Under the pieces are notes generated by a model. That model searched no databases, had not been told where the DNA came from, and saw nothing but the letters and a program-made list of their open reading frames with translations. 64,000 bases of DNA, from NCBI GenBank assembly GCA_016868775.1, contig VGFT01000002.1, forward strand, positions 321,830 to 385,829. The letters are read 5' to 3'. Shown here in pieces: positions 61,448 to 63,171 of the stretch. The stretch's first letter is position 1, and each line of letters begins with the position of its first letter. Source of the stretch: Bacteroidota bacterium (GTDB lineage Bacteria > Bacteroidota > Bacteroidia > Chitinophagales > Chitinophagaceae). Made by a program: the position numbers and the translations under genes.

Positions 61448-62188
61448 ATGTCATCATTACTGGACATCACGTTACTAGCGGATGTGTCGAAGATCGACCC
61501 CACCGACTACGTTTCGTTCACTTTCTTCGTTGGCTGTATGGCCATGATGGCCGCCTCTGTGTTCTTCTTTTTTGAGATCAGCAACACAGACAAAGCCTGG
61601 AAAACATCACTCCTAGTTTCAGGATTGATCACGTTCATCGCCGCCGTGCATTATTATTACATGCGCGATTATTACATGGCAAATCACGAATCACCCACGT
61701 TCTTCCGTTATGTGGACTGGTTGTTGACCGTTCCTCTGATGTGCGTGGAGTTTTATCTCATCACCAAAAAGGCCGGCGCGAAGAGCGATCTGCTTTGGAA
61801 GTTGATCTTCGCGGCTGTCGTGATGCTGGTGACTGGTTACCTCGGTGAGGTGGGCGCTTCTGCCGACAACACCAACGCTACCCTGTGGGGTACGGTATCT
61901 GCGATTGCCTACTTCTACATCGTGTACCTGATCTGGGCCGGTGATGTAAAGAAATTGGCAACAGCGGCAGGTCCGGCTGTAGCCAAAGCGAACTCCGTTC
62001 TCGGATGGTTCGTACTCGTCGGATGGGCGATCTATCCGCTAGGTTATTTGGCGGGTACTGCTGCTGGTCAGTGGTATGCCTCTTTCGCTGGAATTGGCAA
62101 CATCGATATTTACTACAACATCGCTGACGCCATCAACAAGATCGGATTTGGCCTGGTTATCTATAGCCTGAGCCGTTCGAATTCTTAA
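61448..62188 (+). CDS. Proteorhodopsin-type light-driven proton pump with fenestration glycine
   Basis: This 246-residue, seven-helix protein has the retinal lysine at K231 (ADAINKIGFG). Helix C (RYVDWLLTVPLMCVEFYLI) gives D90, T94 and E101, equivalent to D97, T101 and E108 of proteorhodopsin, so it is an outward proton pump (DTE). M98 at the colour-tuning position predicts green absorption. H68 equals His75 and R87 equals Arg94. G149 in helix E aligns with Phe152 of proteorhodopsin, which would open a side fenestration for a carotenoid antenna. Followed by blh, which makes retinal, so light energy is used for the proton gradient. Confidence 0.97.
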   Translation: MSSLLDITLLADVSKIDPTDYVSFTFFVGCMAMMAASVFFFFEISNTDKAWKTSLLVSGLITFIAAVHYYYMRDYYMANHESPTFFRYVDWLLTVPLMCVEFYLITKKAGAKSDLLWKLIFAAVVMLVTGYLGEVGASADNTNATLWGTVSAIAYFYIVYLIWAGDVKKLATAAGPAVAKANSVLGWFVLVGWAIYPLGYLAGTAAGQWYASFAGIGNIDIYYNIADAINKIGFGLVIYSLSRSNS

Positions 62189-62199
62189 TTTACTTTCCG

Positions 62200-62234
62200 A
62201 AAAAACCGGGGGAATCAAGTACCCCGGTTTTTTT
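62200..62234 (+). terminator. Intrinsic terminator between rhodopsin and blh
   Basis: AAAAAACCGGGG, a 10-base loop, then CCCCGGTTTTTT and another T: an excellent terminator, 11 bases after the rhodopsin stop. It ends 4 bases before the blh ATG. Confidence 0.9.
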
Positions 62235-62238
62235 ATTT

Positions 62239-63171
62239 ATGTCCATCCCCTTTCGCACGCAATTATATCTGCTGGCCTTCGGTTGGTCACTGGCCATATT
62301 ATGCGGACAAACCAATCTCCCTCTGCCCTGGCAATGGGGATTTTTTATTTTGACGATCGTGGGGCTGGGTATCCCACACGGTGCCTTGGATTTCATCGTG
62401 GCCAGGCACAATGCCGAAAAGCAAAATGGGGCCTACTCCTTAAGTCGCTTTCTTTTTTTCTATGTTGGACAGTCCATCTTGTTTTTACTAATGTGGATCT
62501 GGCCGCCCCTGGCACTAACCTTGTTTTTGATCTTCTCCGCGCTTCACTTTGGGGAGACAGACTTACAAGAGTTTCGGTTGCAGCCGAAGATCAAGACGAT
62601 TGCCGTATTTCTCTACGGAGCCTCTACCTTCATCCTGCTGCTTCTGGGTCACCACCAGGAGCTGATCGGATATATTCCTGAGATTGGGGGCTTTATCCAA
62701 CGAAGTGATTTTATTCGATGGTCGATTCAGCATTTTGATGCAATCTATCAAGGCACGCTGTTTAGTTCACTCTTGCTGCTGTTGATCTTTACAAAAAAAG
62801 ACGAAAACTTATTCTTTCGGGTAATGGTATTGGTACTGGTTCAGTACTTGGTATCCAATCTTCCGTTCTTGATCGGATTTGCTTTCTATTTTGGCCTCTG
62901 GCATTCCTTGCTCTCCATACAGGCCATTCGCCAGGAAGCGCAGTTCACTTCCCTGACATTCATGCGTAAATACATTACGCCACAAACAGTGTCTTTCGCC
63001 GGACTGGCCTTTGTGATCCTGTTCGGGCTGTATTTTTTGATCGATCGGTATTTGAATTACAGCAATGGCTTGTTCATTTTCTTCATTGGCTTATCGATCT
63101 TGGCCATACCGCACATGCAGGTCATGCATGGATTCTTCAGTCGAAACCGCAAACGGGTATCTTCGGAGTAA
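62239..63171 (+). CDS. blh: Beta-carotene 15,15'-dioxygenase Blh (retinal synthesis)
   Basis: This Brp/Blh-family membrane enzyme cleaves beta-carotene to two retinals, the chromophore of the upstream rhodopsin. The 310-residue protein has about eight helices and the family's iron-ligand His candidates: GIPHGALDF (H47), ALHFGETDL (H103), FGLWHSLLSIQ (H222) and IPHMQVMHGFF (H292, H297). It starts 4 bases past a strong terminator, so it either depends on readthrough or has its own initiation. No carotenoid-synthesis genes are in the window. Confidence 0.95.
   Translation: MSIPFRTQLYLLAFGWSLAILCGQTNLPLPWQWGFFILTIVGLGIPHGALDFIVARHNAEKQNGAYSLSRFLFFYVGQSILFLLMWIWPPLALTLFLIFSALHFGETDLQEFRLQPKIKTIAVFLYGASTFILLLLGHHQELIGYIPEIGGFIQRSDFIRWSIQHFDAIYQGTLFSSLLLLLIFTKKDENLFFRVMVLVLVQYLVSNLPFLIGFAFYFGLWHSLLSIQAIRQEAQFTSLTFMRKYITPQTVSFAGLAFVILFGLYFLIDRYLNYSNGLFIFFIGLSILAIPHMQVMHGFFSRNRKRVSSE

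Follow-up and report, generated by a model that had tools for sequence, protein, structure and literature searches.

The rhodopsin encoded at 61448-62188 of the window (the whole 64,000-nucleotide stretch of DNA analysed here) is probably a green-absorbing outward proton pump of the Bacteroidota proteorhodopsin clade, which uses Blh-made retinal and carries a hydroxylated carotenoid (most likely zeaxanthin) at the opening left by G148, where the carotenoid would aid the pump by energy transfer and/or a faster photocycle. The product of 61448-62188 is a genuine microbial rhodopsin, and a preliminary description of this DNA was right in the main. Three features of the window are relevant:

61448..62188, + strand, proteorhodopsin-clade rhodopsin (ORF, 246 aa; H68, R87, D90, T94, M98, E101, G148, Y200, T204, D227, K231)
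62199..62234, + strand, terminator-like hairpin with a 13-pair stem, 10-base loop and T-rich end (minimum-free-energy fold of 62189-62241, -19.9 kcal/mol)
62239..63171, + strand, blh, beta-carotene 15,15'-dioxygenase (Brp/Blh family), 310 aa (TIGR03753, 136.3 bits, cut-off 95.25; PF15461, 127.9 bits, cut-off 28)

Rhodopsin gene and pump residues

The 246-aa ORF product matched PF01036 at 145.6 bits (cut-off 24.6) and was the sole match to this model in the 2.03-Mb genome; an NCBIfam scan of the protein returned only one histidine kinase model, far under its cut-off (19.1 versus 560 bits). In a MAFFT alignment, the retinal lysine (K231), D90, T94, E101 and the helix-B histidine (H68) line up with their counterparts in green proteorhodopsin. 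Conservation was followed in a set of 81 sequences comprising the window rhodopsin and the best 80 of at least 579 confirmed relatives, within which H68, R87, D90, T94, M98, E101 and K231 were each kept in 81/81. The preliminary description had claimed proton-pump residues in a Chitinophagaceae-like genome, and this held: D90, T94, M98 and E101 were all found as numbered there, D90/T94/E101 are accompanied by H68, R87, D227 and K231, and a contig of the same genus (UBA10502) bears a Chitinophagaceae label. By analogy with its relatives, the window rhodopsin would be an outward light-driven proton pump. That it instead senses light, or moves an ion other than the proton, is extremely improbable, given that the D90/T94/E101 motif is present, the NDQ motif is absent and the entry title of the closest solved relative describes proton pumping.

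Clade and relation to xanthorhodopsin

The closest solved sequences were 9jov/9jou (NM-R1; about 309 bits, 65.9% identity over 229 residues), and the PDB title of 9jou is “zeaxanthin-bound light-driven proton pumping rhodopsin, NM-R1”. In a FastTree tree built on 34 of 122 aligned sequences, the window rhodopsin clusters with Bacteroidota proteorhodopsins and NM-R1, and a branch with support of 1.0 parts it from XR, GR, Kin4B8 and psXR. That the protein is a true xanthorhodopsin with a 4-keto carotenoid antenna would agree with the fenestration Gly and the Tyr common to the window rhodopsin and XR, as well as with residue 205, which is Ala as it is for XR in Table 2 of the excerpted PMC12308411. 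However, identity to XR, Kin4B8, psXR and GR is only 27-32%, the tree splits them off at full support, and none of the three FA_desaturase-family proteins of the genome matched a carotenoid ketolase in NCBIfam (which we assume to include a CrtW model), making this reading very improbable. A xanthorhodopsin identity was rejected on the separate clade and the low identity; a ketocarotenoid antenna is disfavoured by the lack of a ketolase match among the same three proteins.

Fenestration glycine

The preliminary description had placed a fenestration glycine on helix E at residue 149, opposite Phe152 of green proteorhodopsin. The glycine stands at that helix-E site by alignment, but its number is 148 (residue 149 is Thr). 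Aligning the protein by MAFFT to six solved chains put G148 in register with G156 of XR, G153 of Kin4B8, G178 of GR, G172 of psXR and G142 of NM-R1 (9jov), and green proteorhodopsin has F153 in this column (chain 8cqc numbering), which we infer to be the Phe152 named above, shifted by a one-residue construct offset. Aligned with xanthorhodopsin, Gloeobacter rhodopsin and proteorhodopsins, the window rhodopsin has Gly, and no bulky residue, at the fenestration. The XR and Kin4B8 glycine numbering used here matches that in PMC12308411, whose excerpted text treats glycine at this position as the main criterion by which a carotenoid site is recognized. The observation of the glycine is confirmed and is not a matter of chance, since Gly occupies the column of residue 148 in 81/81 sequences (the window rhodopsin plus the best 80 of at least 579 confirmed relatives).

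The same column held Gly in all 35 rhodopsins of a second set, drawn from fetched loci only (7 genus/order relatives and 28 phylum-wide loci); one was a repeat (L094, whose last 200 residues are identical to those of L002 in the first set), and three fragments (L096, L097 and L098) and a locus without a tblastn hit (L125) were left out. By motif, these 35 comprised 23 DTE, 11 NDQ (the sodium-pump motif) and 1 DTA. Gly was found in 11/11 of the NDQ types, where the register depends on a MAFFT alignment at roughly 25% identity, so the residue is not confined to proton pumps in this sample. An excerpted 2026 paper (PMC13043013) likewise gives glycine for all proteorhodopsins of Bacteroidota subtree I, and also within xanthorhodopsin subtree III. 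The fenestration glycine is an ordinary trait in Bacteroidota and discriminates little: because it is present in every Bacteroidota rhodopsin read, NDQ types included, it makes an antenna possible but is no proof of one, and by itself it should not be taken as the sign of an antenna.

Other residues of the carotenoid site and colour

Residues Y200 and T204 line up with Y204 and S208 of Kin4B8 and were each kept in 81/81 sequences (window plus best 80 of at least 579 relatives). The excerpt of PMC12308411 ties G153, Y204 and S208 of Kin4B8 to carotenoid binding and reports that the S208A variant retains ∼2% of zeaxanthin binding, while Y209F lowers energy transfer from ∼40% to ∼18%. Of the features associated there with hydroxycarotenoids, the window rhodopsin has the TM6 Tyr (Y200) and, at Kin4B8 position 208, a polar residue (T204); a polar residue at position 209, as in Kin4B8, KR1 and EinA29G6, is absent, residue 205 (equivalent to Kin4B8 Tyr209) being Ala. 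This column is variable (Ala 33, Pro 32, Glu 11, Asp 3 and Lys 2 among the window rhodopsin and the best 80 of at least 579 relatives; n = 81), and a polar residue at 209 is no strict requirement, because NM-R1, zeaxanthin-bound by its entry title, has Pro. According to the same excerpt, lutein and zeaxanthin, both hydroxylated carotenoids, are bound by two proteorhodopsins with Thr at 208, KR1 and EinA29G6.

M98 occupies proteorhodopsin tuning position 105, at which both Leu and Met are listed as green-absorbing in the excerpted PMC5864233. The green absorption proposed in the preliminary description is borne out to this extent, and by analogy with its relatives the window rhodopsin would be green.

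The blh gene and the intervening hairpin

The blh gene starts fifty bases 3' of the rhodopsin gene on the same strand, and the terminator-like hairpin lies after the rhodopsin stop and before the blh start. A standard terminator scan did not list the hairpin at 62199-62234, the likely reason being a loop too long for that scan to accept. Matches to blh were found at 64/80 relative loci (the best 80 of at least 579), 42 of which have the gene directly downstream on the same strand. A comparable hairpin occurred within 90 bases past the rhodopsin stop at 28/42 loci with blh directly downstream and at 19/37 others (one locus, too short, was left out). Under the same rule, which was devised after hairpins had been seen, hairpins occurred in 15/350 control stretches downstream of other ORFs, each 250 codons or longer and called mechanically rather than curated as a gene, and in 3/420 dinucleotide shuffles of the 42 loci. 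Hairpin stem sequences vary from locus to locus. The hairpin would allow rhodopsin to be made in excess of Blh. In the excerpt of PMC3587595, “terminator” is the name of an exonuclease. The recurrence of a terminator-like hairpin between the rhodopsin gene and blh may be one of the less ordinary findings here.

Carotenoid synthesis genes

On contig C8 of the same genome, codirectional genes encode an ECF sigma factor, CrtI, CrtB, Idi, a CrtZ homologue and CrtY. The order crtI-crtB-idi-crtZ-crtY recurred in all five further members of the genus that were inspected; in one of them, the contig ends within crtI. The ECF sigma factor gene at the head of the cluster (L099, 7479-7976 of G000:C8) has a homologue in the same place in G016 and G009; the portions of G003 and G022 that were read showed none.

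The crtZ homologue within this cluster is a gene of the kind for which the preliminary description had suggested a search. Its product (P0003) is 38.6% identical to a protein encoded next to crtB on Pantoea plasmids, where the annotation reads sterol desaturase family protein; P0003 had no Pfam match even at an E value of 5, no NCBIfam match, and only three chance-level matches in the PDB (E = 0.067-0.2). The name crtZ is given on the strength of the Pantoea plasmid match, the place in the cluster and the His motifs of the product. The genome also has four FA_hydroxylase (PF04116) matches, of which three were scanned in NCBIfam (L084 was left out), giving two weak OlsE matches under cut-off and one protein without a match; the crtZ homologue is a separate gene from these and was missed by PF04116. 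Zeaxanthin is the product expected from the crt cluster by known pathway logic. Because CrtI scores above the threshold of a bifunctional phytoene/3,4-desaturase model (739.4 bits, cut-off 640), the pathway may yield other products besides zeaxanthin; no match to CruF (PF04240) was found in the genome.

Distribution in the genus

Among 23 genus genomes (sample g1, G000-G022, including that of the window; several are incomplete, and counts ignore kinship), rhodopsin matches occurred in six: 6/10 genomes at 2.1 Mb or less and 0/13 at 2.6 Mb or more. Matches to crtB and to crtZ fell in the same 15/23 genomes, covering three of the six rhodopsin-bearing genomes and 12/17 genus members without a rhodopsin match. 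Neither crtB nor crtZ was matched in the other three rhodopsin bearers, G002 (74% complete), G006 (86%) and G014 (100%). The rhodopsin of G014 (L092, G014:C20) is 94.6% identical to that of the window, and the ORF 3' of it resembles the window blh by eye. A synteny search for the crt cluster in G014 gave weak matches only with a flanking gene and none with an 8-kb flank; an assembly gap is possible. The combination in this sister genome of a rhodopsin and a blh-like gene with no crtB or crtZ match may likewise be one of the less ordinary findings. It might indicate that rhodopsin and Blh are uncoupled from own carotenoid synthesis in some members (e.g., G014), which would obtain carotenoid, as retinal precursor and as bound pigment, from other plankton and make rhodopsin in excess over Blh via the terminator, but we regard this as a speculative and quite unlikely scenario.

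These distributions also bear on the possibility that the protein is a plain proton pump, its glycine an inherited Bacteroidota trait and the carotenoid a photoprotectant that does not act through rhodopsin. The glycine is invariant across pump types (35/35, 11 of them NDQ), three of the six rhodopsin-bearing genus members (two of these three being incomplete genomes) have no crtB or crtZ match, and crtB with crtZ is also found where rhodopsin is not. On the other hand, the closest solved relative, NM-R1, has zeaxanthin bound, and T204 and Y200 are kept throughout the window rhodopsin and the best 80 of at least 579 relatives; we judge a plain pump unlikely.

Proposed role of the carotenoid

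Under the preferred explanation, a fenestrated pump with a bound carotenoid, beta-carotene would be converted to retinal by the adjacent Blh, and the genome's own crtI-crtB-idi-crtZ-crtY cluster would supply a hydroxylated carotenoid, most likely zeaxanthin. The carotenoid would rest along the protein, one of its rings occupying the gap at G148 beside the retinal, and would hand light energy to the retinal, speed the photocycle, or both. Carotenoids of marine Bacteroidota rhodopsins are reportedly photocycle-accelerating pigments, to go by the title of work by Fujiwara and others from 2025. What was observed here comprises the sequence motifs, the register of the alignment, the clade, a fold model and the presence of blh and of the crt cluster. 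Zeaxanthin binding by the window rhodopsin is likely by close homology, because zeaxanthin-bound NM-R1 is nearest (∼66%), blh is adjacent and the crt cluster predicts zeaxanthin. Antenna energy transfer is plausible. According to the excerpt of PMC12308411, hydroxycarotenoids transfer energy in Kin4B8, and KR1 behaved similarly except with canthaxanthin. Counted against the preferred explanation are the Gly in NDQ types (11/35), Ala205, the crtZ homologue without a Pfam or NCBIfam match, the CrtI match to a 3,4-desaturase model and the lack of a crtB or crtZ match in G014.

Comparison with known systems

NM-R1 has Pro at the Kin4B8 Tyr209 position, where the window rhodopsin has Ala, and is two residues shorter in the stretch that follows. 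KR1 (Dokdonia) and EinA29G6 resemble the window rhodopsin in TM6 at Kin4B8 positions 204 (Tyr) and 208 (Thr), by Table 2 of the excerpted PMC12308411, and differ from it, by the same table, in having Asp and Glu, respectively, at 209. Green proteorhodopsin (8cqc, 7b03), with Phe at the fenestration, Leu at the tuning position and Tyr at the T204 position, differs in all three. XR, GR and Kin4B8 share with the window rhodopsin the fenestration Gly and the conserved TM6 Tyr, but have Leu at the tuning position, belong to a separate clade and are only distantly identical (27-32%). The window rhodopsin is an ordinary member of the already described fenestrated proteorhodopsins and contributes an example from a small, Chitinophagaceae-type genome for which a zeaxanthin pathway is predicted as well.
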